64,000 nt of DNA from a virus. The stretch covers positions 1 to 64,000 of IMG/VR virus record IMGVR_UViG_3300013137_002966. The stretch is one strand, 5' to 3'. The notes beneath the pieces were generated by a model that saw only the letters and a list, made by a program, of their open reading frames with translations, was not told where the DNA came from and made no database searches. Positions 2,868 to 27,933 of this stretch are shown here, one piece after another; position 1 is the stretch's first letter; every line of letters starts with the position of its first letter. Position numbers and translations under genes: made by a program.

Positions 2868-2900
2868 AAATTCCCTTATTCATTTGTTTAACTCTAAATT

Positions 2901-2913
2901 TTAATATATATAA
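2901..2913 (+). promoter_or_regulatory. Candidate phage promoter, TTAATATATATAA
   Basis: This motif sits 19 nt before the ATG of the gene at 2932, inside an imperfect palindrome (ATTTTAA...TTAAAAT). The same core, TTAATATATAA, recurs ahead of many transcription-unit starts in this window. It resembles a -10-only late promoter like that of T4, which is inference. Confidence 0.45.
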
Positions 2914-2931
2914 TTAAAATCTAGATTCATC

Positions 2932-4457: not shown

Positions 4458-4488
4458 TTTCCTTTTAATTTCTTTCTACTCTTAAATT

Positions 4489-4499
4489 TTAATATATAA
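4489..4499 (+). promoter_or_regulatory. Candidate phage promoter, TTAATATATAA
   Basis: An exact copy of the recurring core motif lies 24 nt ahead of the ATG at 4524 and is flanked by AAATTT and TTAAAATT arms, as at 2901. It would start a transcript for the third Cys-containing LamG gene. Confidence 0.48.
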
Positions 4500-4523
4500 T
4501 TAAAATTCTTACTTGTTTAATAT

Positions 4524-5303: not shown

Positions 5304-5350
5304 TTTTTTTAAATATTTATATATATCGTAGATAAAAATAATTTCATCAT

Positions 5351-6355: not shown

Positions 6356-6359
6356 TATA

Positions 6360-7085: not shown

Positions 7086-7099
7086 AAATAGTAAGTAGA

Positions 7100-9291: not shown

Positions 9292-10487
9292 TGGGATTTT
9301 TTAGAGGACCAAATATAATAAAGAGTAATCTAGCAATTTGTGTTGATGCTGGTAATACAAAAAGTTTTGTAGGAGAACCAACAACTAATTATGCGATTAA
9401 TTGGGATCCCTGGACTGTTAATGGTGAAAACACTAATGTTACTGGTACTATGGATGTTCCTATATCTACATCTAAAACTTGGAAATTTCAAAAATTCGGA
9501 ACTTCTGATCAATGGAATGGCTGGGAATCTACTTATGGCGGAATTTGGACTGGAAGCGCTGGAGATATTTGGACAACTAGTTATTGGTATAAAACATTGA
9601 GTCCTGCAGGACTTAGTAGTTTTTCAATTGGTGCATTCTATTTAAGTAATTGGTCTAGACCTTATAGTACATCAACAATAGCAAATTATAATTCAATAAT
9701 TGCTGATGGATTGTGGCATTATAATTATACAACAGTACAAATTAATGAGGATTATAGTTCGGCTGTCATTGTAGATGGACCTTCTTGGAGTTATAGTACA
9801 CAGGCAGGCTTATTATATATAAATGGCTTACAATGGGAAAAGAAATCTTATCCTACTCCTTATTCAACCGGAACAAGAGGTGCCACAGTCGCAACTGGTG
9901 GTGGACTAAGAGATTTAACTAACAATGGTTATAATGGTGATTTAACTTATATGACATTTGATTCATCAGGAATGGATTATAATGGCTCAAGTTCCTATAT
10001 TACTTTATCTGGTAACGGAACTAGTTTAAATTCACAATATTTTACTATAGATGTTTGGGCTAAATTTGATGATTTAGGTGCTGATCATGTCTTATTTAGT
10101 TATGATTATGCTACTCATGTAAATCCATATTATTCTGCTCATCTTAGAATATCGGATCCATCTGTAATATACTTTATGTGGAATGATGGTTCAACTTATC
10201 AGTATTTAAATAAAACATCAGCACCATTGGGAACAACTACCTATCATAATATTGTTGCAATTTATGCACCAGGTGATCAACGATTATATGTTGATGGTGT
10301 ATTGGTTAATTCAAGTACAAGAAATGATACTATTACTTTTTATGGTACACCTGTTTGGCTTGGAAAAGGTAATTATGGTGGATATCATAATGGTAGAATT
10401 GGTAATGTAAAGTACTATAAGAGAGCATTATCTGGTTCAGAGGTTGTTCAGAATTACAATGCATTAAAAACAAGATTTGGATCATAA
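9291..10487 (+). CDS. Long LamG-like adhesin with inserted domain, array member 9
   Basis: A 398-residue protein with LamG opening GPNIIKSNLAICVDAGNTKSF, GEPTTN, an inserted beta-rich region of about 160 residues (including WTTSYWYKTLSPAGLSSF) and LamG resumption at TRGATVATGGGLRDLTNNG. It ends with VKYYKRALSGSEVVQNY and TRFGS. The insertion is shorter than in the gene at 7807 but sits at the same place, so one ancestral nested architecture has diversified. Start and stop overlap neighbours as TAATG, so translation is probably coupled along 7807-12,933. Confidence 0.8.
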   Translation: MGFFRGPNIIKSNLAICVDAGNTKSFVGEPTTNYAINWDPWTVNGENTNVTGTMDVPISTSKTWKFQKFGTSDQWNGWESTYGGIWTGSAGDIWTTSYWYKTLSPAGLSSFSIGAFYLSNWSRPYSTSTIANYNSIIADGLWHYNYTTVQINEDYSSAVIVDGPSWSYSTQAGLLYINGLQWEKKSYPTPYSTGTRGATVATGGGLRDLTNNGYNGDLTYMTFDSSGMDYNGSSSYITLSGNGTSLNSQYFTIDVWAKFDDLGADHVLFSYDYATHVNPYYSAHLRISDPSVIYFMWNDGSTYQYLNKTSAPLGTTTYHNIVAIYAPGDQRLYVDGVLVNSSTRNDTITFYGTPVWLGKGNYGGYHNGRIGNVKYYKRALSGSEVVQNYNALKTRFGS

Positions 10488-11698
10488 TGTTTACAGGACC
10501 AAATACAATAAAAGATGGATTAGTATTTTGCTATGATATGGGAAATACTGAGAAAAGTTGGAAAGGTAGACCTTTTACAAATCAATTTCATTGTCCAACA
10601 CCAGATGGTGATGGTAATGTTACTTTTGAGATTAATGGAAACGGAACTTTTAAACGTATTTTCTCAGGTACATATGGTGAGTATGTGATTAAATCTACTG
10701 ATATTGTATATAAATATGTGTTAGGAGAGACAGGCTGTCATTATCACGGAAATGATGTAACAATAAATCAAGGACAAACAGCTACTTTTACGTGCGACTA
10801 TTATTTAGATCCAAGTTGTGGACCAGATTGGGTTTCAACTAATTTTTTAGCAAATATGGAAGGTGTTGTTGGTGGAAGTGTTGGAGTTCCAGCACCTTAT
10901 ACTCTTGGTGTGTGGAAGACATTCACATGGAGTTACACCGCAGGATCAACTGGTACTTGTAGAATGCTTTTATATCCAGGTGGTTGCGGTGGATATTTAT
11001 CAGCAGCCGGCTTTATTCTATATAAAAATCCACAAGTAGAATTTGATGCTCCAGGTAATGTACCTTCACCATTTGTTGTTGGAACTAGAACTGAAACACA
11101 AGCCATTTTAGATTTAACTGAAAATAACACAATTACAGTGTCTGCTCTTACATATAATTCTGATAATACTTTTAGTTTTAATGGAAGTATAAGTAGAATT
11201 GATACTGGTTCTTATTTTCCAACAGTTATTACAGGTAATAATAATTTTACTATAGAATGTTGGGTTTATCCAGAAGCATCACAACCAACATTAGCTGATA
11301 TATGGGGAAATCATACTGAACCTTATAAAGGTTTAACAATGCAACAGAATGGTGCGACAACAAATCAATTTTCGTGGGGATATGGGGCTGGAACCTATTG
11401 GTCTAATAACTCAGGTTTATTTAATTTAACAGCATCAAAGTGGAATCATGTAATAGCAACTAGGAACGGCTCAAATCTATCTGCATATGTGAATGCTGTT
11501 TTAATTACGTATGGTGAAGATTCTGGTGCACTTTCACCGAACTCTAATTTTAATTTTCAATTTGGTACAGGATATAATTTGGGCTCAGGTAGAAATTTTA
11601 ACGGAAAAATAGCCTTAGGAAAGATTTATGATAGAGCATTAACAGCAGCAGAAATTTTACAAAATTATGTTGCATTAAAAACAAGATTTGGATTATAA
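10487..11698 (+). CDS. Long LamG-like adhesin with inserted domain, array member 10
   Basis: A 403-residue protein with GPNTIKDGLVFCYDMGNTEKSW, then an inserted beta-rich region with several cysteines (residues about 75-190) and the resumption FVVGTRTETQAILDLTENNTI. The C-terminal LamG part has FTIECWVYPE, WNHVIATRNGSNLSAYVN and IYDRALTAAEILQNY before TRFGL. It is linked to both neighbours by TAATG overlaps. I infer a surface-binding virion protein; the extra domain may bind a second ligand or position the lectin head. Confidence 0.8.
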   Translation: MFTGPNTIKDGLVFCYDMGNTEKSWKGRPFTNQFHCPTPDGDGNVTFEINGNGTFKRIFSGTYGEYVIKSTDIVYKYVLGETGCHYHGNDVTINQGQTATFTCDYYLDPSCGPDWVSTNFLANMEGVVGGSVGVPAPYTLGVWKTFTWSYTAGSTGTCRMLLYPGGCGGYLSAAGFILYKNPQVEFDAPGNVPSPFVVGTRTETQAILDLTENNTITVSALTYNSDNTFSFNGSISRIDTGSYFPTVITGNNNFTIECWVYPEASQPTLADIWGNHTEPYKGLTMQQNGATTNQFSWGYGAGTYWSNNSGLFNLTASKWNHVIATRNGSNLSAYVNAVLITYGEDSGALSPNSNFNFQFGTGYNLGSGRNFNGKIALGKIYDRALTAAEILQNYVALKTRFGL

Positions 11699-12933
11699 TG
11701 TTTACAGGACCGAATATAGCAAAAGATGGATTAGTATTAGCAGTAGATGCTGCTAATATAAAAAGTTTTAGGGGAGAGCCTGGAACTAACATATTAACTG
11801 AGATGGCTTATATTTATGGTACACAAACAGGTGCTTATTTTAAAACTAGTTATGGTACAGAAACTGTAAATATACCAAAAATTGGAGTCACAACCGCACA
11901 TTATTGTAATATTTATAATGATTATCCAGCATCTGAAAGTTGTTGTCCAAGTTTATTTAGATATGGTGATGTAGCCGTATCTGCTAATACATCTTATACT
12001 TATCAAATTATTTTTAGAACAAATAATGGATATGTAAATGATAATTATATGTATCATTATGAATATAATACAGATACATATCTAGCTGAATATGGTTTAT
12101 ATTCAGGATCAAGAGTTGAGGATTTAGGTGACGGATGGATTCATGCGTGGGGTACATTTACATCACATGCATCAGCCAATAGATTTATATGCTATTTGTT
12201 TCATTATGAATATGCTACATATAATAAGATAGAAATAGCAGGTGTTATGTTAACACCCAGAAGTAATGTAATTTCATATAAGCATTTTATTGCCTTAAAT
12301 ACAACTAGAGGTGCAACTGTAGCAACCGGTGGAGGTTGGAAAGATTTATCAATATACTCTAATAATGGTCAGTTATTTAATGCACCAACATATAGTAACT
12401 ATAATTGTGGCTCATTAGTTTTTAATGGTAGTAATCAAAATATAGGTATTACTAGTAATATAACAGTTAATCCAAGAACAGGTTCATTTACTATTATAGC
12501 TTGGGTTAATTCTGATCCTTCTGGTGGTGATAATTGGGATTTATGGATATCAAAAAGAAGTACAGGAAGTAATGGATTTTATATAGGTGCTAATAGCCCA
12601 AGTGGAGTTAGATTTATGTTGGGTAATGATGCTGGTAGTAGAACGGACACTGGATTTATATCTTATACCTCAAATACGTGGGCAATGTTTACTGGTGTTT
12701 TAAATAGAGATACTAATAGTCAAAAAATTATAAGAAATAATTTTGAGGAAACATCTTCAGTAGAACCTGCTGGCGAAAATTATTCAAATGATGCTTCTTT
12801 ACTTATTGGAGGCGAAGGTGGTTCTTATTTCGTTAATGGGAAAATTGCTATAGTTTTAGTTTATAATAAAGCCCTTTCGGATTCAGAAATTACTCAAAAT
12901 TATAACGCATATAAGAGTAGATTTGGATTATAA
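11698..12933 (+). CDS. Long LamG-like adhesin with inserted domain, array member 11
   Basis: A 411-residue protein with GPNIAKDGLVLAVDAANIKSF, GEPGTN, an inserted aromatic-rich domain (about 35-200, many Tyr) and LamG resumption at TRGATVATGGGWKDLSIYS. FTIIAWVNSD and a KIAIVLVYNKALSDSEITQNY segment precede SRFGL. Its start overlaps the stop of the previous gene by 1 nt. It is the last gene of this uninterrupted coupled run; a promoter-like motif follows its stop. Confidence 0.8.
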   Translation: MFTGPNIAKDGLVLAVDAANIKSFRGEPGTNILTEMAYIYGTQTGAYFKTSYGTETVNIPKIGVTTAHYCNIYNDYPASESCCPSLFRYGDVAVSANTSYTYQIIFRTNNGYVNDNYMYHYEYNTDTYLAEYGLYSGSRVEDLGDGWIHAWGTFTSHASANRFICYLFHYEYATYNKIEIAGVMLTPRSNVISYKHFIALNTTRGATVATGGGWKDLSIYSNNGQLFNAPTYSNYNCGSLVFNGSNQNIGITSNITVNPRTGSFTIIAWVNSDPSGGDNWDLWISKRSTGSNGFYIGANSPSGVRFMLGNDAGSRTDTGFISYTSNTWAMFTGVLNRDTNSQKIIRNNFEETSSVEPAGENYSNDASLLIGGEGGSYFVNGKIAIVLVYNKALSDSEITQNYNAYKSRFGL

Positions 12934-12940
12934 AATTATA

Positions 12941-12951
12941 TTTATATATAA
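12941..12951 (+). promoter_or_regulatory. Candidate phage promoter, TTTATATATAA
   Basis: A variant of the recurring motif lies only 3 nt ahead of the ATG at 12955. That is close for a promoter, so it could be a leader element or lie in a very short untranslated region. Confidence 0.3.
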
Positions 12952-12954
12952 GAT

Positions 12955-13167
12955 ATGAGAATAGAAGAATCAATAGTAGAAGGTGTTTTAGTTCGTAATA
13001 TGATTTATGATGAAACTGATCTTTCAACAGAAGAACAAAGAAATACTTGGATAACAATTTGTAACAACTGTGACAAGAATAACAATGGTATTTGTACAAT
13101 ATGTGGTTGTATTATTCAATCACTAATGTCGTTTAGTAATTCACATTGCTCAATAAATAAATGGTAA
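12955..13167 (+). CDS. Small Cys-rich, probably zinc-binding protein
   Basis: A 70-residue protein with an ICNNCDKNNNGICTICGC core (C-x2-C-x7-C-x2-C-x-C) near residues 36-52, a further cysteine (FSNSHCSINKW) and a Trp at the end. Small proteins with this C-x2-C...CxxCGC...C...KW arrangement are often found among phage tail-fibre genes; their function is unknown to me. It probably folds around a zinc ion. It sits between LamG genes in the same orientation, 2 nt before the next gene. Confidence 0.6.
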   Translation: MRIEESIVEGVLVRNMIYDETDLSTEEQRNTWITICNNCDKNNNGICTICGCIIQSLMSFSNSHCSINKW

Positions 13168-13168
13168 T

Positions 13169-13726
13169 ATGAGTACTTATGGAGGTCAAAGAAGTATATT
13201 AGTAACATCAGCCAATATATATGCTGTTAATTTAAGTAATTGTATATTACTTGATAGTGGTGATAAAGGTATTTTTGGTGGTTATATGGTTAAAGTTTAC
13301 CACAACACTAGTGGCTGCGGAAATCCATCTTCTTATATCTTTTTAGAATTAAACGATAGTCATCCTTGGACTGGTATAGCATGTGAATTTGAATTAGGTG
13401 GAACTGCTTCTTGTTGGAATTTTAATTATAACGGTGATGGATATTTACTGAACTATTCTGAAAATGATGGTGATATTATTCCAAATGAAAGATGTCTTAA
13501 TTGTTGGGAATATGCTGAGTTTAGAACTCATAGCAAAGTTACTGCTTGTGATAATGATTCTAATAATTTTTTTCACGGAGGATATCAAAAAGGAGATCCT
13601 AAAATATTTCTAATGAAACGTAGAAGAGATGGTAGCGGTAATAAAGCCGGTATATATCATTATAGAAGTTGTAACAGCACTGGTGCCAGTTCATATACAA
13701 TAATAAAAAATATAAGAATTTGGTAA
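13169..13726 (+). CDS. Unrecognised Cys-rich protein in adhesin array
   Basis: A 185-residue protein that I do not recognise. It is beta-rich in predicted character and contains at least nine cysteines, including a CLNCWEY segment, as well as many Gly, Asn and aromatic residues. The middle (ELNDSHPWTGIACEFELGG) and the end (YTIIKNIRIW) look like strands of a compact beta domain. It has no LamG signature and lacks the RFGL terminus. It lies between the small zinc-type gene and a long LamG gene with a TAATG overlap, so a virion or fibre-assembly role is the best guess. Confidence 0.55.
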   Translation: MSTYGGQRSILVTSANIYAVNLSNCILLDSGDKGIFGGYMVKVYHNTSGCGNPSSYIFLELNDSHPWTGIACEFELGGTASCWNFNYNGDGYLLNYSENDGDIIPNERCLNCWEYAEFRTHSKVTACDNDSNNFFHGGYQKGDPKIFLMKRRRDGSGNKAGIYHYRSCNSTGASSYTIIKNIRIW

Positions 13727-14892
13727 TGAGTTCAATAGGTGGTGCAAATATAGTAAAAAATAGACTTTTGTTAGGTTACGATATTGGTGGTTCTAGATTT
13801 TATCCAGGCGAACCTACTGTTAATTTATCACCTAATGTTCATATTGGCGGTGTTGCTGGAATTACAATATCTTATATTACTATTGAAAATGGTTGGAAAA
13901 AATATAGCATAAGTGGTACTTGGGCATCAGGCTCATATCCATATTGCATGGCTCTAGACGGTTATAATTTTACAGGTGGCGCTATGTACTCATCAAGTTG
14001 TATAGTTAAAACTAATGTTTTAGGTAAATTTGATTATAAATTTGCAGGTATGAATTATGTTAATCAGCCTATGGATTATGGCGGAACATCTTTTAGTATC
14101 ATGAATACAGATGGTGAAGTATTTGTTGGTAGATATGGTTTTCAATATACATCAACGACAACTCAATCTGGATATTTAGTAGTAAAGCCATTAGCTGACG
14201 GTACATCTTTCAGTGCTGATACTGATTTTGTCTGGCTTAAAAATGCACAAATTGAGCAGAAATCTCATGTTACTCCTTATGTTAATGGAACTAGATCCGC
14301 AACTCAAAGTCTTCTTGATTTAGCTGGAACATATTCACTTGATGTATCATCTCTTCTTTTTGATTCTGTTGCACAACCTTATTTTAATGGTTCTAATTAC
14401 ATAAGTGTAAATATCAATTCTTGGATTAGAAATGCTGCTTATATTTCAATTTCAGGCTGGTATTACCATATAGGTAATACTTTGGGTGCACCTTGGGGAA
14501 TATTAACAAATGTTCCTGGAACAGCAGCATCAGATGGTTTTTGGTGGCATATTAATTATTCAGGTGATCTTTATCTTAGAACGGAAGATAGCACAAATGG
14601 TGAATATGATGGTACATATACCCCTTTTGTATCTGCAGGACATTGGTATCATATTGTAACTATTGTCGGAACTAATAAATTTGATGTATATCTCAATGGA
14701 TCTTTATATTTATCTTGGAGTCCAGTTTTTTCTTGGTCATTGATAAATTCTGATACAGCTTATTTAACAATTGGATATAGTTATAGTGAAGGTGTTAATG
14801 GATATGTAAAACAATTTGCTTTATATGATAGAGCATTAACAGCATCTGAAGTCTTACAAAATTATAACGCACATAAAGGTAGATTTGTATAA
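13726..14892 (+). CDS. Long LamG-like adhesin with inserted domain, array member 12
   Basis: A 388-residue protein from the ATG that overlaps the upstream stop (TAATG); a TTG two codons earlier is a less likely start. It has GGANIVKNRLLLGYDIGGSRF, GEPTVN, an inserted domain of about 165 residues and LamG resumption at NGTRSATQSLLDLAGTYS. The LamG part has ISISGWYYH, WYHIVTIVG, FDVYLNGS and FALYDRALTASEVLQNY. The terminus is GRFV, lacking the usual final Gly-Leu, so the C-terminal motif is slightly shortened. The role is presumably virion surface binding. Confidence 0.8.
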   Translation: MSSIGGANIVKNRLLLGYDIGGSRFYPGEPTVNLSPNVHIGGVAGITISYITIENGWKKYSISGTWASGSYPYCMALDGYNFTGGAMYSSSCIVKTNVLGKFDYKFAGMNYVNQPMDYGGTSFSIMNTDGEVFVGRYGFQYTSTTTQSGYLVVKPLADGTSFSADTDFVWLKNAQIEQKSHVTPYVNGTRSATQSLLDLAGTYSLDVSSLLFDSVAQPYFNGSNYISVNINSWIRNAAYISISGWYYHIGNTLGAPWGILTNVPGTAASDGFWWHINYSGDLYLRTEDSTNGEYDGTYTPFVSAGHWYHIVTIVGTNKFDVYLNGSLYLSWSPVFSWSLINSDTAYLTIGYSYSEGVNGYVKQFALYDRALTASEVLQNYNAHKGRFV

Positions 14893-15587
14893 TGTACACC
14901 GGACCTAATATAGCAAAGAATGGATTGGTTCTGTGTTTAGACGCAGGTAACATAAAATCATATCCTGGAACAGGAACAGAATGGACAGATCTATCTAGTC
15001 ATGATAATCACGCTACAATGTATGGATCTGTACCATTTTCAATAGATACATTTGGATGTTTTGATTTTGCAACTGCAACTGGTGCCGCCTCTGCTAGTTC
15101 TAGCCTTGGATTTACATTTGCTTCTAATATGATTCCAAGAACAGGAAATTTTACTTTATCATGCTGGGTAAAAAATCCAAATACTAGTGTTGGTCAGGTT
15201 GGACTTTTTTCAAATGCAGGTGGGGGCGATGGATATAGATTCGGTGTAGGGCGGGATGCTGTTTATTTTTTAATCGGACCAGATTATACAGAAGGTGGTA
15301 TAGGATATGGAACAACTTTGAGCGATGCGATCTGGTACAATATAACTGCTGTATTTAATAGAACAGGAGCATCAGTTGTTGTTTTTGTAAATGGTGCACA
15401 ATATAACTCTTCTAGTATACCAGCTTCACAAACACAAATGCAAAATAATCCACCCGGATTAGTTAGAAGCGCCTGTTGCAGTATTTATACAGGTAAATTA
15501 GCAACTTTTTTTGTATATAATAGAGATTTGTCTTCTTCTGAAATTTTACAAAATTATATAGCACATAAAACTAGATATGGATTATAA
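14892..15587 (+). CDS. LamG-like adhesin, array member 13
   Basis: A 231-residue single-domain LamG-like protein starting GPNIAKNGLVLCLDAGNIKSY and GTGTEWTDLSSHDNHATM. It contains FTLSCWVKN, WYNITAVFN, VVFVNGAQYN and LATFFVYNRDLSSSEILQNY, and ends TRYGL. It closes the LamG array and is separated from the next gene by a promoter-like motif. Its simplicity and clean motifs make it a good reference member for aligning the rest. Confidence 0.84.
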   Translation: MYTGPNIAKNGLVLCLDAGNIKSYPGTGTEWTDLSSHDNHATMYGSVPFSIDTFGCFDFATATGAASASSSLGFTFASNMIPRTGNFTLSCWVKNPNTSVGQVGLFSNAGGGDGYRFGVGRDAVYFLIGPDYTEGGIGYGTTLSDAIWYNITAVFNRTGASVVVFVNGAQYNSSSIPASQTQMQNNPPGLVRSACCSIYTGKLATFFVYNRDLSSSEILQNYIAHKTRYGL

Positions 15588-16786: not shown

Positions 16787-17518
16787 ATGATTTTAGATAA
16801 TGAATTCATAAAGCATAATATTACAAATAATGATGATAAGTCCGTTCCTTTTCGTTGGACTCATGGTGCAACAGATGAGCATATGGGTGATGGTTTAATT
16901 GTTTACTCTTTAATTCAGCACATGAGAGCTAAAAACTGTGTCTGCATTGGCTCAGGTGGTGGTTATATACCACGAATAATGACACAAGCAAGAATAGATT
17001 TACATGGACAAAATATTTTTGAAGGTAATCCTGATTACAATTGGGGTGATATTGGTGCAACATATTTGATAGATCCTTGTAATGGTATCGGAGGACCATC
17101 AGATGTAGATGATGAAAAATCTTTTTTTAGAACTCATTTTTATCCAAGATATATTAAAGATACATCAGAAAATGCGTTCTACAATTTTTTTGTAGTACAG
17201 GATATAAAAATAGATATTTTATTCGTAGATGGTGATCATACTTATGATGGTGTCAAAAAGGATTTTGAATTATATTCAACAATTTTATCCAAAAATGGTA
17301 TAATAATTATACATGATACTGATGAAAGATTTGAAAATAAATTAATTATATCTGAAGATGCAAAGAAAGACTATTTTAAATTTGATGGTCCCAGTAGACT
17401 TATTAAAGAATTACAAAATAGTACTGAATGGAATATAATTAATTTATTTAATTTTGGCATACTTAATACTAAACCATCATCAAGCGGATTGACAATTATA
17501 AATAGAAAGAATGATTAG
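16787..17518 (+). CDS. Class I SAM-dependent methyltransferase
   Basis: A 243-residue protein. CVCIGSGGGYIPRIM (about residues 51-65) matches the glycine-rich SAM-binding loop, and ILFVDGDHTYDGVKKDF (about 145-161) followed by NGIIIIHDT matches Methyltransf_24-type enzymes that modify sugars or small molecules. It sits between two glycosyltransferase-like genes, with an 8-nt overlap to the next, so methylation of a sugar or nucleotide sugar is the likely role. The acceptor is not evident. Confidence 0.72.
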   Translation: MILDNEFIKHNITNNDDKSVPFRWTHGATDEHMGDGLIVYSLIQHMRAKNCVCIGSGGGYIPRIMTQARIDLHGQNIFEGNPDYNWGDIGATYLIDPCNGIGGPSDVDDEKSFFRTHFYPRYIKDTSENAFYNFFVVQDIKIDILFVDGDHTYDGVKKDFELYSTILSKNGIIIIHDTDERFENKLIISEDAKKDYFKFDGPSRLIKELQNSTEWNIINLFNFGILNTKPSSSGLTIINRKND

Positions 17519-18362
17519 GCTACTAACAGTTATCGGACATGGTTTAGAACTTTTGCCACATTTTATTCAACATTATGCAGCAAGTGTTGACGAAATAAAC
17601 ATTATAGTATATTCATCTGAAAAATATCCAGACATAGAAGATGATATTAAAGAATTTATTAAATCATATTCAAATGTAAAAATAGTTTACTCCGAATTTT
17701 GGAGAATATATGATTGGGAACATGTAACAAAACTATATAATAAAATCAAATCTAAATATCCTGATGATTGGTGGATTATTGCAGATATAGATGAATTTCA
17801 GGTATATTCTAAGAATATCAAAGAGATAGTATGTGAATGTGAAGAAAATAATTGGCAATTTGTGACAGGTGGATTTATAGATAGAATAGGTCAAAATGGT
17901 GATTTTCCAAGTATATCTTCAAATTCTAGTATTTGGATACAATTTCCAATGGCTGGATTTTTTAGATATCCTATTTCTAATGCTTGTCCAAATAAAGTTA
18001 CATTATGCAAAGGTAATATAGAAATATCTAATGGTCAACATTATGCAATTATAGAAGGACAGACTACATGGAGATGGCAAGGTTGGAATCATCCATTAAG
18101 ATATCCTATTGATAGAAATTTTACACAAGTACATCATTTCAAATGGGATTCTTCAGTTAAAAGAAGATTAAAAGCTGTCGCAGAAATAAAAAAAGATTAT
18201 GCTTATTCAGACGAGTATAGAGCAATGTATGAATATCTAAAAAAGAACAAATTTAAAATTGACATTTCAAATAACAATTTTTTATTTGAATACTCTCCAA
18301 TTTTAGGCTATGAATATTATAAAAAATGGAAACTATTAACAAAAAAAATAATTTCAATATGA
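17511..18362 (+). CDS. GT92/GT2-like glycosyltransferase
   Basis: A 283-residue protein that begins LLTVIGHGLELLPHFIQHY, typical of Glyco_tranf_2_4/GT92-type enzymes in which HFIQHY follows the first strand. WWIIADIDEFQVY (about residues 84-96) carries the DxD-like IDEF motif. The C-terminal half includes HYAIIEGQTTWRWQGW and VHHFKWD, a conserved His/Trp pattern of this family. It overlaps both neighbours (8 nt upstream, 4 nt downstream). It probably adds one sugar to a glycan; donor unknown. Confidence 0.72.
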   Translation: MIRLLTVIGHGLELLPHFIQHYAASVDEINIIVYSSEKYPDIEDDIKEFIKSYSNVKIVYSEFWRIYDWEHVTKLYNKIKSKYPDDWWIIADIDEFQVYSKNIKEIVCECEENNWQFVTGGFIDRIGQNGDFPSISSNSSIWIQFPMAGFFRYPISNACPNKVTLCKGNIEISNGQHYAIIEGQTTWRWQGWNHPLRYPIDRNFTQVHHFKWDSSVKRRLKAVAEIKKDYAYSDEYRAMYEYLKKNKFKIDISNNNFLFEYSPILGYEYYKKWKLLTKKIISI

Positions 18363-20056
18363 ATGTAGGTTTTTTAGGTTTAGGAAAATTAGGTTTACCT
18401 TGCGCACTAGCTATTGCTAGTAAAGGCCATAGTGTATATGGCTATGATATTGATCTGAATGTTAAGAAATACATTGAGGAAAAGAAAATACCATATCGTG
18501 AAGAAGGTGTAGAAGAGCTTTTACAAGATTTTACTGTACATTTCACTGATATTGAGAATGTTGTAAATTCTTCTGATATTATCTTTGTACCTATTCAAAC
18601 ACCGCATGAGTATAAATATGAAGGTTGTACTAGAATACCTGAAGAACGAGATGATTTTAATTATGAATGGCTAAAAGATGGAATTAAGCAATTATCAGAT
18701 ATTATTAAACTGCAATCTAAAGATAAAGTCGTAGTTATTATTTCAACTGTTCTACCAGGTACGATTGAAAGAGAAATTAAACCTATCATTCAGTATAATG
18801 AAAAGCTTAAATTATGTTATAATCCATTTTTTATAGCAATGGGAACAACTGTTAATGATTTTTTAAATCCAGAATTTGTGTTATTTGGTGTTGATGATAA
18901 ATGGGCTGCAGATATTACAGAAGAATTTTATAAAACTATTCACGATAAACCTTTTTATAAAACAGATATAATTAATGCTGAACTTATTAAAGTATGTTAT
19001 AATACTTTTATTGGTATGAAAATAGTTTATGCAAATACAATTATGGAAATTTGTCATAAAACTGGTGCAAATGTTGATCAGGTGATTGGTGGTATCAAAT
19101 TAGCTACTGATAGAGTCGTATCAACTAAATATTTGAGTGGTGGAATGGGTGATGGTGGAGGTTGTGTTTTACCGTCTTTTGAAATAAATGTTAATAATAA
19201 AATTTATAATATTAAGGATTTATATTATGAATTTCATAAAAATCGTGAAGAGACATATTTAGTAGATTCTGCAAATTATACCTGTAATACTAAGCAACAG
19301 AAAAAAATATATGATGTAACGACTAGAAAATATAAAGGTAAATTATATACCTTTAGAACAAAAGATAAAGAAATTACGGTCACGGGTGACCATTTGATAC
19401 CTATTGAGAGAAATAGTAAAAGAATTATAGTAAGAGCAGAAGAAATAAAAAAAGATGATAAATTTTATATTATTGATGATTATAATAGTGTTGTTGAAAA
19501 AATTGTAGAGATTTTTATTAGTGATTATGAAGGTGAAGTTTATAATTTAGAAGTTGAGCCGTATCACGAAGTTAAAGACGATCAATTTTATATTGACAAT
19601 AGTACGGGAATAGTTGTACATAATTGTCATCCACGTGATAATATTGCTATGAGTTGGTTAGCCAAGAAATTAGAACTTTCACATAACTTCTTTGAAGATG
19701 TAATGAAAGCAAGAGAAGATCAAACTGAATTTCTAGCAGATGTAATATTAGAGCAAGATGGTCCATATTATATTATGGGAAAGACATTTAAGGAAGAAAC
19801 CAATCTAATAATTGGATCACCGGCAATTTTATTAAGAAACATATTAGAAGAAAGAGATGTCGAAGTAATTCATTATGATCCATTTATTGATGATGATATA
19901 GAATTTGTGAAAGGTACTTATTTTGTTGCTACTAGACATAATCAATTCAAATACTTTAAATTTCCAAAAGGATCAACTGTAATTGATGTATGGAGATTCT
20001 TAAGTTTTGAAGATGATGATAAAATAAATCATATAAAGGTGGGTGGTGAAGTATAA
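18359..20056 (+). CDS. UDP-glucose/UDP-sugar 6-dehydrogenase containing a mini-intein
   Basis: The 565-residue precursor begins at the ATG that overlaps the previous stop. Residues 1-268 are the N-extein, with the NAD-binding GLGKLG (7-12), IISTVLPGT and the AELIKVCYNTFIGMK motif that supplies the catalytic Lys/Asn of nucleotide-sugar dehydrogenases. Residues 269-422 are an intein. The C-extein starts at Cys423 in GGG/CHPRDN, the catalytic cysteine of this enzyme family, and runs to the end. Spliced, the enzyme would have about 411 residues, close to normal length. It would oxidise a UDP-hexose to the uronic acid for glycan synthesis. The exact sugar (glucose, ManNAc or GlcNAc) cannot be told from sequence alone. 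Confidence 0.88.
   Translation: MNVGFLGLGKLGLPCALAIASKGHSVYGYDIDLNVKKYIEEKKIPYREEGVEELLQDFTVHFTDIENVVNSSDIIFVPIQTPHEYKYEGCTRIPEERDDFNYEWLKDGIKQLSDIIKLQSKDKVVVIISTVLPGTIEREIKPIIQYNEKLKLCYNPFFIAMGTTVNDFLNPEFVLFGVDDKWAADITEEFYKTIHDKPFYKTDIINAELIKVCYNTFIGMKIVYANTIMEICHKTGANVDQVIGGIKLATDRVVSTKYLSGGMGDGGGCVLPSFEINVNNKIYNIKDLYYEFHKNREETYLVDSANYTCNTKQQKKIYDVTTRKYKGKLYTFRTKDKEITVTGDHLIPIERNSKRIIVRAEEIKKDDKFYIIDDYNSVVEKIVEIFISDYEGEVYNLEVEPYHEVKDDQFYIDNSTGIVVHNCHPRDNIAMSWLAKKLELSHNFFEDVMKAREDQTEFLADVILEQDGPYYIMGKTFKEETNLIIGSPAILLRNILEERDVEVIHYDPFIDDDIEFVKGTYFVATRHNQFKYFKFPKGSTVIDVWRFLSFEDDDKINHIKVGGEV
19163..19624 (+). other. Mini-intein inserted at the catalytic cysteine of the UDP-sugar dehydrogenase
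   Basis: A 154-residue protein splicing element. It begins with Cys1 (CVLPSFEI, block A), has ITVTGDHLIPI as block B with the T-x-x-H pattern, and ends VYNLEVEPYHEV (block F) and IVVHN followed by Cys of the extein (block G: His-Asn/Cys). The nucleophiles Cys1, Asn154 and Cys+1 are all present, so splicing should work. There is no LAGLIDADG or HNH endonuclease between blocks B and F, so it is a minimal intein that depends on other activities for mobility. Base composition does not differ visibly from the host gene. Confidence 0.9.
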
Positions 20057-20106: not shown

Positions 20107-20328
20107 ATGGCAGAAAAAGTAAATCCATCTAAAGATGTATTGGATGAAAAAGACAAATTAGAATTACGTAAAGTAAAAGCGTTAGAAAAAATTGCAAATT
20201 CTTTGGATTCACTAACTATTTGGTTTGAAGAGATAGATAAAATTGAATGGAGTGATAGAATTCAATATTATCTTTCAGAATTTTATAAAATAAATAAAAA
20301 TAAAGTTTCTGACACTGAAGATGAATAA
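20107..20328 (+). CDS. Small conserved helical phage protein
   Basis: A 73-residue, highly charged protein. A helical segment KALEKIANSLDSLTIWFEEI is followed by EWSDRIQYYLSEFYK. Its function is unknown to me. It overlaps the start of the galactosyltransferase-like gene by 8 nt and lies directly behind a promoter-like motif, so it may be the first gene of that transcript. Confidence 0.65.
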   Translation: MAEKVNPSKDVLDEKDKLELRKVKALEKIANSLDSLTIWFEEIDKIEWSDRIQYYLSEFYKINKNKVSDTEDE

Positions 20329-21757
20329 ACATATATTAGGTATAGTTGTTCCATATAGAGATAGATATGATCATTTAGAAAAATTCAAGAAGGTGGTACC
20401 TTACTATCTTGATAGTAAGGATATAGACTATAGAATTATAATTGTTGAACAGGATAATGCAAAACTTTTTAATAGAGGAATGTTGTTAAATATTGGTTTT
20501 GTGTATGCTGAAGCAATGGGTTGTGATTATGTTATTTTTCATGATGTAGATATGCTACCAATTAATGTTGATTATACTTATTCTGGTACACCTTTACATT
20601 TAGCAACTGATTTTGTGGAAAATAGTTCAATGGTAAGAACTTTATTTGATGAATATTTTGGTGGTGTCACTTTATTTCCAATTAATGAGTTTAGAAGAAT
20701 TAATGGTTATTCTAATAAATATTGGGGATGGGGATACGAAGATAATGATCTTTTATTGAGATGTAAAAAATCAAAAATAAAACCAAAAATAAAATTAGAT
20801 AGATTAAAAATTAAAAATTATGGTAATCATATTTTTTCATTAAGATTTAATGGTGTTGATGCTTATGTAAAAGGAAAAAACATTTTTAATCTTAATAAGA
20901 GTATAACTATTTTTGCATCATTTTATCCAGACGAAATAACTTGCAATCATGAAAAAAATCAAGATAATTATGTAGTTTTTTCAATTCCAGGATATGATAC
21001 TGCTATTTCTTATAACTCGTTCTCACGATATAATTTTTGTACTTTTGATAAGAATAAAAATGCAGTTTATTTAAACTCAAATATAAAGACAAATTATAGA
21101 ACAAATATTTGTATAACAATTGATAGATTTAATAATAAAATTTCAGGTTATCAGGATGGTAAGCATATTGGCACATCACCGTTTGAGCATAAACTAATGA
21201 GTTATAAAAATCAAGAATATTTTTATTTAGGAGCAGGTGATCCTAATCGAGTAGGTAACGAGAAATACTTTAGAGGTTATATTAATCAATTTGTTGTTTT
21301 TTCAGATGTTCTTGATGAGGATAACATAAAAGAAATATCAAACAATATGGATGATGTTTTAAATAAAGATTTTGGTCTTTATACTTCGTCACATTTACTC
21401 CAATTATATTATGATGCTAGATTTATAGATAATTATAAATTAATTGACTTATCTAAAAAAGGAAATGATGGTGAGATTGTTAACTGTGAGATTGTTAATT
21501 TAGAGCCAGAAAAATATAAAATTATTGATATACCAATTAGAAGAAAAAGTATATTTAGTTTACTGAGTCATGACGAAAACGGATTTGTTAATAACGATTG
21601 GAAAAGTAGCACTATAAGATGGAATCAATTAAGATTTTATAATGAAGTTTCAAAAAATGATGATTTACTAGGAAACGACGGACTATCTGATCTTAAATTT
21701 ACTGAACATGGTATTTATCGAAAAGGAAGAATAACAAAAATAACAGTAGGAATATGA
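20321..21757 (+). CDS. Beta-1,4-galactosyltransferase-like (GT7) protein with inserted LamG-like domain
   Basis: A 478-residue protein. Residues 1-150 match family GT7: VVPYRDR (9-15), FNRGMLLNIGF (50-60), FHDVDMLP (73-80, metal site) and GYSNKYWGWGYEDNDLLLR (129-147, the WGWGxEDxD catalytic motif). Residues about 170-400 form a concanavalin/LamG-like domain ending with LYYDARF and DLSKKGNDGEI. Residues about 410-478 return to GT7: SLLSHDENGF, RWNQLRFYNE and NDGLSDL, which parallel the C-terminus of animal beta4GalT. The lectin-like domain is thus inserted inside the transferase. The enzyme probably adds a hexose from a UDP donor; the inserted domain may hold the acceptor. Confidence 0.82.
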   Translation: MNKHILGIVVPYRDRYDHLEKFKKVVPYYLDSKDIDYRIIIVEQDNAKLFNRGMLLNIGFVYAEAMGCDYVIFHDVDMLPINVDYTYSGTPLHLATDFVENSSMVRTLFDEYFGGVTLFPINEFRRINGYSNKYWGWGYEDNDLLLRCKKSKIKPKIKLDRLKIKNYGNHIFSLRFNGVDAYVKGKNIFNLNKSITIFASFYPDEITCNHEKNQDNYVVFSIPGYDTAISYNSFSRYNFCTFDKNKNAVYLNSNIKTNYRTNICITIDRFNNKISGYQDGKHIGTSPFEHKLMSYKNQEYFYLGAGDPNRVGNEKYFRGYINQFVVFSDVLDEDNIKEISNNMDDVLNKDFGLYTSSHLLQLYYDARFIDNYKLIDLSKKGNDGEIVNCEIVNLEPEKYKIIDIPIRRKSIFSLLSHDENGFVNNDWKSSTIRWNQLRFYNEVSKNDDLLGNDGLSDLKFTEHGIYRKGRITKITVGI

Positions 21758-23163
21758 ATCATAAATTAGGTATTTGCATACCTTATAGAAATAGAAAAGA
21801 GCATTTAGAAAAACTTATACCTGCTTTAACAGAACATCTTAATAATCAAGGCATTCAACATAAATTTTATGTTGGACATCAAGTTGATGATTTTTTATTT
21901 AATAGAGGTGGTATGAAAAATATTGCTGCTGAATATGCATTTAAAGAAGGATGTGATTATATAGCTTGGCATGATGTTGATATGCTTCCTCATTCGGATT
22001 GTGATTATAGTTATCCTGAACAAACACCAATTCATATTGCTACCTATTTAGAAAAATATAATTATGGAATTGGTTACGATCAATATTTTGGCGGTGTTAT
22101 ATTGTTTAATAAAGAACAAGTAGAAAGGACTAATGGTTATTCTAATGATTATTGGGATTGGGGACAAGAAGATGATGATTTATTCTGGAGAGCATATTAT
22201 GAGGGTTATACTACAGGAAAGATATTTAAAACATATGAAAATAAAAAGGTAGGGAATTTTAATGGAAAAGATTCAAAGGTAATAGTTCCTACAAATAGAG
22301 AGATAAGTTCATGTCTTCATAATGATCATACTATTTCTATACTATTTAATCCTCAGCAACAACCAGAAAAAGTTCCTATATGGTTAGTTGGTGATAAGAA
22401 TAAAAGATTTATTGAATATCCTCTATTGAGAAAAGAAAAAAGTTGGACTTGGGGTTTTTCATTTAATAATTCTCGAGCTGTTACTATGCTGTATTTTGAT
22501 AGAAATAATGCACTTTGGTATAATTGGGGAAAAAGATTTGAAAATATGTGGACTTGGGTAACTGCTTCATATTCTACTGAAGAGCAGGCAATATATTTCT
22601 ATTTGAATGATGATTTGATATGTCAAATGGAAGGAATAAAACAGAAAAAACCTTATCCTATTAAAGATAGATTAAGAAGTCATGATTCTATTAGTCCATT
22701 CTTAATAGGTTTTTGTAATCAGACTAATACCGGATATAAAGGAAAAATTGCTGAAGTAAAAATATTTAATAAATTTTTTGATAATGTTTATGATGTATTT
22801 GAAAGTAAAGATGATTTGGTTTTACATTATGATTTTAGTAATAATGATGGATCTAATAATGTAATAATAACTAACGAAGATATAGATGTAATTGAGAATA
22901 TTCTTCCATATAGAAGGGAAGGTCATATGTACTGTTTACATCACGAAGATCAAGGTTTTGTAAATGGCGGATGGGCTAGAGGAGAAACAACAGCAAGAAA
23001 CGAGAGACGATTTGTTACAGAAATGCAACAAAAAAAGATAGATTATAAAAATGATGGTATCAATAAGATATTGGAAGTAACGGATGTTGTTAGTTTAGAT
23101 GAACATACTTATCCGAATACAATGATAATTAATACTAAGATGACTAATTATAAAAATAAATAG
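21754..23163 (+). CDS. Second GT7-like transferase with inserted LamG-like domain
   Basis: A 469-residue paralogue of the preceding gene, overlapping it by 4 nt. It has IPYRNRKEHLEKLI (9-22), FNRGGMKNIAAEYA (about 49-62), WHDVDMLPH (about 73-81) and GYSNDYWDWGQEDDDLFWR (about 128-146). The inserted beta domain (about 160-385) contains SILFNPQ, TWVTASYSTEEQAIYFYLND and VKIFNKF. The final 75 residues (YCLHHEDQGFVNGGW, NERRFVTEM, NDGINKIL) belong to GT7 again. WGWG is WDWG here, a change in the sugar-binding loop that could alter donor or acceptor. Tandem duplication is clear. Confidence 0.8.
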   Translation: MNHKLGICIPYRNRKEHLEKLIPALTEHLNNQGIQHKFYVGHQVDDFLFNRGGMKNIAAEYAFKEGCDYIAWHDVDMLPHSDCDYSYPEQTPIHIATYLEKYNYGIGYDQYFGGVILFNKEQVERTNGYSNDYWDWGQEDDDLFWRAYYEGYTTGKIFKTYENKKVGNFNGKDSKVIVPTNREISSCLHNDHTISILFNPQQQPEKVPIWLVGDKNKRFIEYPLLRKEKSWTWGFSFNNSRAVTMLYFDRNNALWYNWGKRFENMWTWVTASYSTEEQAIYFYLNDDLICQMEGIKQKKPYPIKDRLRSHDSISPFLIGFCNQTNTGYKGKIAEVKIFNKFFDNVYDVFESKDDLVLHYDFSNNDGSNNVIITNEDIDVIENILPYRREGHMYCLHHEDQGFVNGGWARGETTARNERRFVTEMQQKKIDYKNDGINKILEVTDVVSLDEHTYPNTMIINTKMTNYKNK

Positions 23164-24425: not shown

Positions 24426-25814
24426 ATGTTAAATGAAGTTTTTGAAAAAACAAAATTAAAATTAGATAATGTTGGTTGTGGAATGTGTTTGGCAAAATGG
24501 ACTCAAGTTACAATGCATTTACATAATGGATTAACACACTCTTGTCATCATCCAGCTCCACATAAAATACCTTTAGAAGAATTAGCGTCTAATTCTACTG
24601 CTTTGCATAATACAGAATTTAAAAAATCTCATAGAAAAGTTATGCTTAATGGTGGTCGGCCAGAGGAGTGTGATTATTGTTGGAAAATAGAAGATAATTC
24701 AAGAGGCTTCTCTGATAGAGTTATTAAATCTTCTGAACCTTGGTCTGCTCCTTATTTTGATGAAATTATTAATAGTGATTGGAGAGATAATTTTAATCCT
24801 AGATATGTTGAAGTTAGTTTTTCGAATGCTTGTACATTTAAGTGTTCTTATTGTAGTCCTATATTCTCATCTAAATGGATGGAAGAAATAAATACATTTG
24901 GTGGATACAAAACATCTGATAAATTTAATGATCTTCAATGGATTAAAGATACAAATCAAATGCCATATCATCATAATGATTATAATCCATATCTTGAAGC
25001 ATTTTGGAAATGGTGGCCTGACTTATATAATGATTTAGAAACATTTAGAATTACTGGTGGTGAGCCATTAATGTCCAAAGATACATTTGATATTTTAGAT
25101 TATATTATAAATTCAAAAAATCCTAATAAAAAACTTAATATATGTATAAATACTAATTTAGGTGTTTCACAAAATATTTTTGATAATTTTGTTGATAAAA
25201 TTGAAAAAATATTAGATAATGAATTAGTTCATGAATTTATAATTTTTACATCTTGTGATGCTTTTGGTAAGCAAGCTGAATATATTAGACATGGTCTTGA
25301 TTTTAATATGTTTTCAGAGAGAATCGATTTTCTATTGGATAAATTTAAACCTATGACTATTGATATTATGTCAACATATAATGCATTATCTGTTCCTAGT
25401 TATAGTAAATTAATAGATTGGGTTTATTTATTGAAAGAAAGATATCATAATCCTTATAGATATTGGGGATCTTCTTTATTATTAGATTCTTCATATCTTA
25501 GATGGCCTCTACATCAAACAATTAGAATATTAGATAGAGAGTGGAAGCAAGAAATAACAAAACAAGCAATTTTAGCTGATTTTTATGAACAGACAAGAGT
25601 TGGAATTGATGGATATGGTTTTACAGATATTGAAATTAATAAAATAAATAGAATTAAAGATTGGTTTAATTCTATTGAAGAAGAGAATTTAAGTGTTAAT
25701 AGAAGAGATTTTTATAAATTTATAAAAGAGCACGATAGTCGTAGAGGTACAGATTTTTGTGAAGTTTTTCCTGAATTAGAAGAATTTTATTATAATTGTA
25801 GAACTGCTAGATAA
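24426..25814 (+). CDS. Twitch-type radical SAM protein
   Basis: A 462-residue protein of the twitch-domain radical SAM kind seen in phages. The N-terminus has CGMCLAKW, a THSCHHP segment and ECDYCWK (about residues 80-86), which could bind one auxiliary cluster. The core FSNACTFKCSYCSP (about 137-150) is the C-x3-C-x2-C motif, and FRITGGEPL (about 211-219) is the GGE motif that contacts the SAM amino group. The paralogue at 26506 has the same layout. Function unknown; it lies beside sugar-transfer genes. Confidence 0.78.
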   Translation: MLNEVFEKTKLKLDNVGCGMCLAKWTQVTMHLHNGLTHSCHHPAPHKIPLEELASNSTALHNTEFKKSHRKVMLNGGRPEECDYCWKIEDNSRGFSDRVIKSSEPWSAPYFDEIINSDWRDNFNPRYVEVSFSNACTFKCSYCSPIFSSKWMEEINTFGGYKTSDKFNDLQWIKDTNQMPYHHNDYNPYLEAFWKWWPDLYNDLETFRITGGEPLMSKDTFDILDYIINSKNPNKKLNICINTNLGVSQNIFDNFVDKIEKILDNELVHEFIIFTSCDAFGKQAEYIRHGLDFNMFSERIDFLLDKFKPMTIDIMSTYNALSVPSYSKLIDWVYLLKERYHNPYRYWGSSLLLDSSYLRWPLHQTIRILDREWKQEITKQAILADFYEQTRVGIDGYGFTDIEINKINRIKDWFNSIEEENLSVNRRDFYKFIKEHDSRRGTDFCEVFPELEEFYYNCRTAR

Positions 25815-25834: not shown

Positions 25835-26500
25835 ATGGAATTTTCAAACGAACTTGCCTTTTTTGTTAGAAATGAAACAAGAAATAAGACTAATCTTAAA
25901 AAATATGAATTATTAAATAATGATTTTATTTTTGAAGCGACGTTTAAACTTAATGCAAATATAGATGTGGATTACAATGAATATTGTGTTATTGGAAGAA
26001 CTGGATATAATATGGGAATTTATGCACAATCAATCGATGCTCTTAAATGGACTTGGTGGGAAATTGAAAATGATAAACCTGTATATAAAGATATTTATGT
26101 TAATCCTGTTGATAATACTATGATTAGTAAGATAAAAGTTATAAAAAAATCAAATAAATTCTTATTATATTATAATGATAATTTTTATGCAGATGAGAAA
26201 ATTGGTAAACTGCATGATTATTCAGATCAAACAATATGTGTTGGTGTAGGTAATCCTTATTCTGATCAATCACCACCATTTTGGTTTATAGGTGATATAT
26301 ATGATGTTAAAATTTATCATAATAGTATAGAGTCCAATGATTATTTATATTTATGGTATGATTTTGAAAGAAATTCGCATTTCAAAACTTTTGATAAAAG
26401 CGGAAATGGTAATCACGGTGAAATATTTAATTCACCTGAATTAATAAGAATGAAAAATGAAGAATTTAATAGGGTGGCTAGACCTGCAAAAATAATTTAA
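25835..26500 (+). CDS. Stand-alone LamG-like protein of permuted type
   Basis: A 221-residue concanavalin-like protein. Unlike the tail-array members, the segment LYLWYDFERNS followed by DKSGNGNHGEIF lies at the C-terminal end (about residues 168-195) rather than at the start; the same order is seen in the domains inserted in the two GT7 proteins. IGDIYDVKIYHNSIESNDY just before it corresponds to the closing strand of the array proteins. The RFGL terminus is missing. Placed between two radical SAM genes, it may be a substrate-binding subunit rather than a virion adhesin. Confidence 0.68.
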   Translation: MEFSNELAFFVRNETRNKTNLKKYELLNNDFIFEATFKLNANIDVDYNEYCVIGRTGYNMGIYAQSIDALKWTWWEIENDKPVYKDIYVNPVDNTMISKIKVIKKSNKFLLYYNDNFYADEKIGKLHDYSDQTICVGVGNPYSDQSPPFWFIGDIYDVKIYHNSIESNDYLYLWYDFERNSHFKTFDKSGNGNHGEIFNSPELIRMKNEEFNRVARPAKII

Positions 26501-26505: not shown

Positions 26506-27933
26506 ATGTCAGAAGAATTAAAAGATTGGAGAAATAGAAATCTCAATTCAGTAAGTAGAAGTTTTTGTGCAGCAAAATGGTATAATGCCAGTTTACATTT
26601 AGGACATGGTTATACTAATTCATGTCATTTACCATTGCCGCATCCTGTCGATATAGACCAAATAAAGACTAATCCATCTGCTTTACATAATACTGATCAT
26701 AAAAAAGCGGTTCGTGAAATGATGAGAGTAGGAAAATTTCCAGCAGAATGTTCATATTGCTGGAAATTAGAGGAAATTGGTGATGATAGTATATCTCATA
26801 GAGTTTATAAGAGTATCATATATACCGAAGATGATATTAAGAAAATTAAAGATATGCCATATGACTATAATGTGCCACTGAAAACAGTTGAAATTAGTTT
26901 TGATAGAGTATGTAATTTTGCTTGTAGTTATTGTAATGCGGGATATAGCACAACTTGGTTTAAAGATATTAGTAAATATGGACCATATCAAAAATTTAAG
27001 ACTTCTGGTGCCGGTGCTTATGCAACAGACGGCTCTTGGTCAGAAGTTTTTGGTAAAAATAGTGAGCAAAATCCTTATGTTGATGCGTTTTTAAAATGGT
27101 ATCCCGAATTAAGTAAAACCTTAGACGAATTAAGAGTTACTGGAGGTGAGCCTTTACAAAGTAGTAATTTTTGGAGATTTATGGATGTAATGCAAAAATA
27201 TCCTTCAGAGAAAATGAGATTTGCAATAAATTCTAATTTGGGATTAAATGAAAAAACACTAAATAAATTAATTCAAATGACTCATATGCTTAAAATTAGG
27301 GAATTTGATTTATATACTAGCAACGAATCATTTGGTGCTCATGCTGAATATATAAGAGATGGATTAATATATGAGCAATGGAAGAATAATATGATTAAAT
27401 TTATTGAAAATGCTAAGTTTAGAGCACTTACTATTATGATGACTATTAATAGTTTATGTTTATTTAGTATAACTGAATTTTTAGATGATATGATGATATT
27501 GAAAGAAAAATACGCATCACACCATCCTAATGTAGATATCAATATATTAAGATGGCCTGGATTTATGTCACCACTATCATTACCAGATGAATTAAAATAT
27601 AAATGTTATGTTAAGCTTCAAGATTGGTATGAAAAAAATAAAAATAGTAGATTATTTAGTCTACATGAAATGACTCAAATATCTGATTTAATAGATTATA
27701 TTAAAATTGTGGAGAAAGGACATCAATCTACAGAATCTGATAAGGAGATTATGTATCATGATTTTAAAAGTTTTTATTCACAATATGATAAGAGAAGAAA
27801 TAAAGATTTTAAAAAAACATTTCCTGAATTGGCTGAATGGTACGATTCGTTGGTTATAGATGAATCTATACCATATTTGGAGATAAACGATGGGAGAATA
27901 ACAAATTACGAAAAAGGTGAGTATCAAAAATAG
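26506..27933 (+). CDS. Twitch-type radical SAM protein, second copy
   Basis: A 475-residue paralogue of the gene at 24426. It has SFCAAKWYNASLHLGHG and TNSCHLPLPHP near the N-terminus, ECSYCWK (about residues 83-89), the cluster motif FDRVCNFACSYCNA (about 131-144) and LRVTGGEPL (about 209-217). The end (FKKTFPELAEWYDSL) matches the DFCEVFPELEEFY end of its paralogue. All cluster cysteines are present, so it should be active. The duplication with separation by a LamG-like gene suggests that the two act on related but distinct substrates. Confidence 0.78.
   Translation: MSEELKDWRNRNLNSVSRSFCAAKWYNASLHLGHGYTNSCHLPLPHPVDIDQIKTNPSALHNTDHKKAVREMMRVGKFPAECSYCWKLEEIGDDSISHRVYKSIIYTEDDIKKIKDMPYDYNVPLKTVEISFDRVCNFACSYCNAGYSTTWFKDISKYGPYQKFKTSGAGAYATDGSWSEVFGKNSEQNPYVDAFLKWYPELSKTLDELRVTGGEPLQSSNFWRFMDVMQKYPSEKMRFAINSNLGLNEKTLNKLIQMTHMLKIREFDLYTSNESFGAHAEYIRDGLIYEQWKNNMIKFIENAKFRALTIMMTINSLCLFSITEFLDDMMILKEKYASHHPNVDINILRWPGFMSPLSLPDELKYKCYVKLQDWYEKNKNSRLFSLHEMTQISDLIDYIKIVEKGHQSTESDKEIMYHDFKSFYSQYDKRRNKDFKKTFPELAEWYDSLVIDESIPYLEINDGRITNYEKGEYQK

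Follow-up and report, generated by a model that had tools for sequence, protein, structure and literature searches.

A LamG/pentraxin-like domain inserted into the catalytic core of two tandem GT7-type glycosyltransferases of an uncultured virus

The first 64,000 nucleotides of the IMG/VR virus record IMGVR_UViG_3300013137_002966, referred to here as the window, contain two adjacent genes, ORF A and ORF B, which overlap by 4 nt (Table 1). The original prediction, made from the sequence alone, was that these encode two beta-1,4-galactosyltransferase-like proteins with a LamG-like domain placed inside each. Pfam searches, alignments with LamG-less homologues and models of both proteins agree with this, and it is near certain that A and B are tandem paralogous GT7-type enzymes, each with a complete GT-A core and one inserted domain of the LamG/pentraxin fold. 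The predicted order of the segments (GT7, LamG, GT7) holds, although their sizes need correction: the insert is about 230 rather than 220 residues long, and the C-terminal piece comprises 77-87 residues rather than 65.

In ORF A, Pfam places GT7N at residues 4-87 (8.6e-19), GT7C at 105-154 (2.1e-17) and Laminin_G_3 at 178-336 (1.4e-9). In ORF B, GT7N (2-84) and GT7C (94-155) are found at about 1e-17, so that both families exceed the Pfam cut-off in both proteins, while the Laminin_G_3 match at 171-340 (5.9e-5, 23.7 bits) lies slightly below its cut-off of 27.6. By sequence, the nearest relatives of known structure are beta4GalT7 and beta4GalT1, which phmmer matches to ORF A at 1.4e-25 and about 3e-24, respectively; for 3lw6 the values are 1.4e-25 with A and 7.2e-32 with B. 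The C-terminal return to GT7 has no Pfam match in either protein. Family profiles built from 44 A and 45 B proteins recover the N-terminal GT7 part at about 1e-37 to 1e-39, along with a second, weak segment correctly placed near the end of beta4GalT1; this segment is collinear against beta4GalT1/7 for both A and B and individually sub-threshold.

Those C-terminal segments are by themselves no proof, and alignment with LamG-less proteins provides stronger evidence. Three LamG-less phage GT7 proteins (L049, L051 and L055) align to both ends of A and B with a single gap, which corresponds to the LamG domain. Around the gap, 'DLAKRLEAVGLPIG-YRDGTFLALDHDSNGY' of the LamG-less proteins faces 'DLLLRCKK...-[insert]-IRRKSIFSLLSHDENGF', and GT7 proteins of Pelagibacteraceae and of the Azospirillum type likewise close the gap at both ends of the insert. 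The domain is located in the turn between the helix carrying the catalytic ED (WGWGxED) and the segment that runs up to the metal-ligand His. Animal beta4GalT is continuous here, as the original prediction stated, with about 30 residues separating the catalytic ED from the metal His, compared with about 276 in A and 257 in B.

AlphaFold2 models made with the family alignments have a pLDDT of 91.8 for ORF A and 89.7 for ORF B, each with a pTM of 0.87. Residues 1..478 of the A model superpose on bovine beta4GalT1 (1tvy_A 177..398) with Z 25.4 and an rmsd of 2.6 over 216 residues, and residues 1..467 of the B model on 1tvy_A 178..402 with Z 27.2 and an rmsd of 1.9 over 217 residues. In both models the N- and C-terminal pieces superpose jointly on beta4GalT1/7, the C-terminal piece packing on the GT-A core. 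Both inserts adopt a concanavalin-type jelly-roll fold by superposition (Z 18-21). For residues 170..401 of ORF A the best matches are 4dqa (Z 21.4), PAPP-A (Z 21.4) and PTX3 (Z 19.4); for the ORF B insert they are PAPP-A (Z 19.7), 4dqa (160..380, Z 18.0) and pentraxins (Z 16-17). The pentraxin strand order is present, with the last strand following the terminal helix, such that model residues 165/172..393/400 align sequentially to pentraxins. The insert shares its fold and strand order with pentraxins and PAPP-A LamG/Laminin_G_3 domains (Z 16-21) at a sequence identity of only about 5-18%. Neither of the outcomes named beforehand as contradicting the original prediction, a middle part unlike concanavalin folds or a C-terminus failing to pack on GT7, was obtained from the models.

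A chance likeness at the C-terminus is ruled out by the clean gap in the LamG-less homologues and by the superposition. The insert is neither an intron nor an intein, having a predicted LamG fold and staying in frame in every full-length ORF that was retrieved. Apparent further insertions at three loci with longer tblastn spans (L003, L068 and L116) are really chaining of A to B or contig ends.

Table 1. Positions in the window of the two interrupted glycosyltransferase genes, their domains and the neighbouring genes
Feature	Position	Strand	Basis or remarks
ORF A	20321-21757	+	478 aa
ORF A, GT7 N-terminal catalytic part, residues 1-160	20321..20800	+	FNRG, DVD, YFGGV, WGWGYED; Pfam, phmmer, structure
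ORF A, inserted LamG/pentraxin-like domain, residues 170-401	20828..21523	+	Laminin_G_3 1.4e-9; model superposition
ORF A, GT7 C-terminal part, residues 402-478	21524..21757	+	invariant His417, RWNQLRF...NDGLSDL; LamG-less GT7 alignment, structure
ORF B	21754-23163	+	469 aa
ORF B, GT7 N-terminal catalytic part, residues 1-158	21754..22227	+	FNRG, DVD, YFGGV, WDWGQEDDD
ORF B, inserted LamG/pentraxin-like domain, residues 162-380	22237..22893	+	Laminin_G_3 5.9e-5; PAPP-A Z 19.7; hhalign to insert A
ORF B, GT7 C-terminal part	22900..23163	+	invariant Cys394 and His397; alignment, structure
End of collagen-like Gly-(Ser/Thr)-rich fibre, putative substrate	1..1032	+	translation
LamG-type fibre/adhesin gene array immediately upstream of cassette	1048..15587	+	fibre-LamG HMM, sequence
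Methyltransf_24 methyltransferase, cassette member	16787..17518	+	Pfam 3.7e-12
GT-A glycosyltransferase, cassette member	17511..18362	+	Glyco_tranf_2_4-like, below cut-off
UDP-glucose/GDP-mannose dehydrogenase with in-frame intein-like insertion	18326..20056	+	UDPG_MGDP_dh N/mid/C, Intein_splicing 0.0027
Extra radical-SAM-like gene breaking cassette order	23172-24392		
N-twitch radical-SAM enzyme, cassette member	24426..25814	+	NF033640 2.6e-98
Standalone LamG-type protein, same subfamily as inserts	25835..26500	+	profile matches, no Pfam hit
Second N-twitch radical-SAM enzyme, cassette member	26506..27933	+	NF033640 1.8e-84

Residues D77/D76, E140/E139, D141/D140, Y112/Y111, W137/W136 and H417/H397 (A/B) are invariant in 44/44 A and 45/45 B proteins and match Asp254, the catalytic ED, Trp314, Tyr289 and His347 of beta4GalT1. 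Tyr289 is the donor-choosing position in beta4GalT1 and, because its equivalent in the YFGGV motif is conserved, the donor of A and B may be UDP-galactose. The Mn site of beta4GalT1 is formed by Asp254, His347 and Met344 (PMC7565966). At the position of this third ligand, B has the invariant Cys394 and A has Ser or Leu. Judged by the residues invariant in both families, catalysis is likely to be intact in both enzymes. Mean pairwise identity (A/B) is.46/.44 for the LamG domain,.63/.73 for the N-terminal part and.52/.60 for the C-terminal part; LamG evolves fastest.

Animal beta4GalT7/1 (4irq, 3lw6, 1tvy) resemble A and B over the entire GT-A fold, C-terminus included (Z 25-27), and share with them the DVD and WxWGxED motifs, the His aligned with the Mn ligand and the donor-choosing Tyr. 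Unlike the animal enzymes, A and B have no N-terminal anchor and begin with the catalytic core itself. The lectin modules of GALNTs, GnT-IV and POMGNT1 are C-terminal or stem domains that lie outside the catalytic core, whereas the LamG of A and B lies within it. These modules direct substrate choice (PMC11254600). B4GALNT3 (the LacdiNAc synthase, a beta4-GalNAc transferase) requires for its activity a PA14 domain, which is a beta-sheet domain of carbohydrate-binding type (PMC11254600). It is similar to A and B in having such an extra domain, but in the phage proteins the domain breaks into the catalytic core. The LamG-less GT7 proteins of phages and bacteria (L049-L055, Azospirillum, Pelagibacteraceae) have the same core and are collinear at both ends of the insert; they differ in being mostly 220-370 aa long without LamG, and the phage cases have other gene neighbours.

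Other GT7 proteins with the insertion occur in further virus contigs. IMG/VR yielded 53 loci for A and 64 for B, and a profile scan detected 565 relative-encoding stretches, the best 80 of which were kept. Among 90 distinct IMG/VR contigs having an A or a B gene, over which all cassette counts below are taken and which are not independent of one another, 79 have both interrupted genes. All full-length viral ORFs retrieved, 185 for A and 181 for B (also non-independent), have kept LamG, and each virus record checked (up to 335 kb) has exactly two GT7N genes. One contig encodes a third, divergent GT7-LamG paralogue in tandem (L096:3-1334), in which WGKGYID replaces WGWGxED with loss of the second Trp and the Glu; going by this motif, it is possibly an inactive or regulatory copy. 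No tblastn match to A or B was obtained in 50,697 isolate-phage records. Cellular LamG-bearing hits in species genomes are restricted to three loci on small contigs of two metagenome-assembled genomes (L120, Pelagibacterales; L121 and L122, Flavobacteriales), and these are possibly viral in origin. That A and B are bacterial genes is therefore rejected, the remaining cellular GT7 proteins having been found without LamG. Of the matches listed from BFVD, not one spans both the GT7 and LamG parts convincingly; the libraries searched held no glycosyltransferase with a LamG/pentraxin-type insert, and no description of a GT7-LamG insertion architecture was found in the open-access literature.

The two inserts are similar to each other (hhalign 99.4%, E 1.6e-21) and to LamG domains found elsewhere in the same gene neighbourhood. 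Insert A matches a standalone LamG protein at 99.3% and a LamG fused to radical-SAM enzymes at 96.8%, and the latter two match each other at 99.9%. Insert B against the radical-SAM-fused LamG reaches 37.6% only; the other five of the six pairs fall within 96.8-99.9%. On these profile comparisons, the two inserts, the standalone and the radical-SAM-fused LamG form one subfamily. The likeness to the LamG domains of the viral fibres is confined to about 77 columns in hhalign, and the N-terminus of the fibre LamGs corresponds to the last-strand motif of insert A, 'LxLYYDAxxI...LxDLSGNxNDGEI' (87%, E 3.8e-6). The enzyme and fibre LamGs are therefore permuted relative to each other. Direct capture of the insert from the neighbouring fibre genes is unsupported, the likeness being partial and permuted only.

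In an unconstrained tree of the GT7 N-terminal part, A and B do not form a single clade without LamG-less bacterial proteins; a single A/B origin is not rejected by the tree test (p-AU 0.268). Two independent insertions were considered on this account, but the shared site and the homology of the inserts speak otherwise. Because both are common to A and B, the comparison favours one insertion preceding the A/B duplication.

A and B belong to a conserved gene cassette. The order methyltransferase, GT-A, A, B is found in 73 of the 90 contigs, and GT-A, A, B in 76; usually radical-SAM enzymes (80/90) and the standalone LamG gene (69/90) follow. Homologues of the N-twitch radical-SAM enzyme at 24426..25814 with one or two N-terminal LamG domains occur in 26/90 contigs, including two with a double tandem LamG ahead of the enzyme (L083:5418-8237 and L099:5403-8201), and in one contig B itself is fused to an N-twitch enzyme, giving a GT7-LamG radical-SAM protein of 923 aa (L027:4148-6916). 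In the window, this order is broken by the UDP-glucose dehydrogenase gene between GT-A and A and by the extra radical-SAM-like gene. The intein-like insertion in the dehydrogenase ends ...VVHN-C; most relatives have nothing between GT-A and A. The standalone protein of the window scores 16 bits with the A-insert HMM and 180 bits with the 'standalone' HMM, although the latter includes this very protein. As judged from these sequences, the view that one LamG module is common to a conserved modification cassette is well supported.

It has been considered that LamG acts, in the manner of a pentraxin, as an oligomerisation or rigid structural insert that leaves acceptor choice unaffected, given that pentraxins, which assemble into rings, are among the closest folds and that LamG is the least conserved part of A and B. 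The presence of the same subfamily on unrelated enzymes and alone fits recruitment better than fold support, and a purely structural role seems improbable. Glycosylation of hypermodified phage DNA by the cassette is more improbable still: phage glycosyltransferases are known to perform this reaction (PMC12619734), and radical-SAM and methyltransferase genes would suit base modification, but the cassette adjoins fibre genes, the LamG fold is typical of extracellular or fibre proteins, and no base-modification gene was recognised within the cassette.

The small RiPP recognition element, fused or alone, recruits enzymes such as radical-SAM maturases to one substrate. The cassette LamG resembles it, by analogy only, in being distributed as inserted, fused and standalone forms; the RiPP element differs in its unrelated fold and in acting on a precursor peptide, none of which was identified in the cassette. 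Since the same LamG subfamily is inserted, radical-SAM-fused and standalone in one cassette, it may be viewed as a shared docking module. LamG would draw the methyltransferase, glycosyltransferase and radical-SAM pathway to one common acceptor or scaffold, most likely a structural protein of the phage whose gene lies immediately upstream (collagen-like Gly-Ser/Thr, S74 or LamG fibres), and the outcome would be a decorated virion fibre. A docking function with a fibre as target is given close to an even chance. The more specific proposal, that the permuted LamG subfamily is a common docking tag with which the cassette enzymes jointly modify one phage fibre, is put forward only tentatively and must be considered doubtful.

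In the window, the collagen-like fibre has a GXY run of 174 residues with Ser/Thr at 81% of X/Y positions, and the fibre-LamG HMM, made from eight of the ORFs concerned, matches 13 ORFs of the array that follows. A C-terminal motif resembling NYNAxKxRFGL is common to these LamG fibre proteins. A survey of 18-20 kb upstream in 32 regions, compared with 20 control regions (contigs again not independent), detected LamG fibres in 13/32 against 1/20 (p.008) and either fibre type, LamG or collagen-like, in 20/32 against 5/20 (p.011). Collagen and S74 fibres were also detected by Pfam in other cassette contigs. The original prediction suggested that LamG might select the LamG adhesins themselves as acceptors, which could occur, for example, by LamG-LamG pairing; the upstream enrichment and the adjoining array in the window lend this some substance. 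The enzyme LamGs nevertheless belong to a separate subfamily, permuted with respect to the fibre LamGs, and 19/32 upstream regions are without detected LamG fibres. Two records, G003 (326 kb) and G008 (251 kb), both of which may be incomplete, have no Pfam-detectable LamG beyond the two inserts, which speaks against LamG adhesins as a necessary target. Selection of the adhesins by LamG is thus unlikely.

The fibre-docking proposal must also be weighed against several findings that do not favour it. The enrichment of collagen-like runs is not significant by itself (15/32 against 4/20, p.08), and in several upstream regions neither LamG nor collagen-like fibres were detected. No third protein metal ligand is conserved in A, which has Ser/Leu where beta4GalT1 has Met344. 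The nucleotide-sugar and polysaccharide-type genes at 29-53 kb of the window fit a free or host-surface glycan equally well. This glycan-type island (29393-53000) comprises NAD epimerases, an RmlC-type epimerase, a Nol-like carbamoyltransferase, an APS kinase and a GT1/GT9 enzyme, to which the UDP-glucose dehydrogenase can be added. Such a gene set would suit remodelling of host-surface polysaccharide, e.g. as a superinfection block, with LamG holding the host glycan while GT7 extends it. The authors of a pelagimyophage study favour host O-chain modification by phage glycosyltransferases encoded close to tail fibres (PMC7029224), which is in line with this alternative. However, a LamG that is carried by radical-SAM enzymes and also made as a free protein would be unusual in O-antigen assembly, and there is no room for a membrane anchor in A or B, because in alignments the proteins begin directly at the GT7 core. 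Host-polysaccharide remodelling is accordingly considered rather unlikely, if less so than adhesin selection, but it is a serious rival to the fibre proposal.

The GT1/GT9 enzyme of the island (50521-52983) has a weak match (1.4e-4) to TibC, a protein O-glycosyltransferase, which counts in favour of the fibre proposal. The island also contains split transketolase/E1-like genes, SGNH-like proteins and, at 34905-40777, several related large ORFs (867, 411 and 670 aa) that contain similar repeated units and have hardly any Pfam match; one of these ORFs ends in a methyltransferase-like domain. The DNA polymerase gene of the window (58278-61506) is 59.5% identical to that of the 735-kb uncultured phage record LR756501, and the record of 93.7 kb probably represents part of a large phage genome. 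The polymerase ORF is short (510 aa) and is followed by an endonuclease-like ORF; the gene may be split.

In lactose synthase, acceptor choice by a GT7 enzyme needs a second protein, alpha-lactalbumin. An acceptor-choice module could plausibly sit where the insert does, and a binding domain within the glycosyltransferase core, just before the metal-binding stretch, offers a natural test of built-in acceptor choice in the GT7 family, with LamG-plus and LamG-less proteins at hand for comparison. The occurrence of one LamG subfamily across unrelated enzymes likewise provides a testable handle on the glycan genes of large environmental phages. Joint modification of a fibre by the cassette enzymes, if true, would be of a kind not yet described for any virus.

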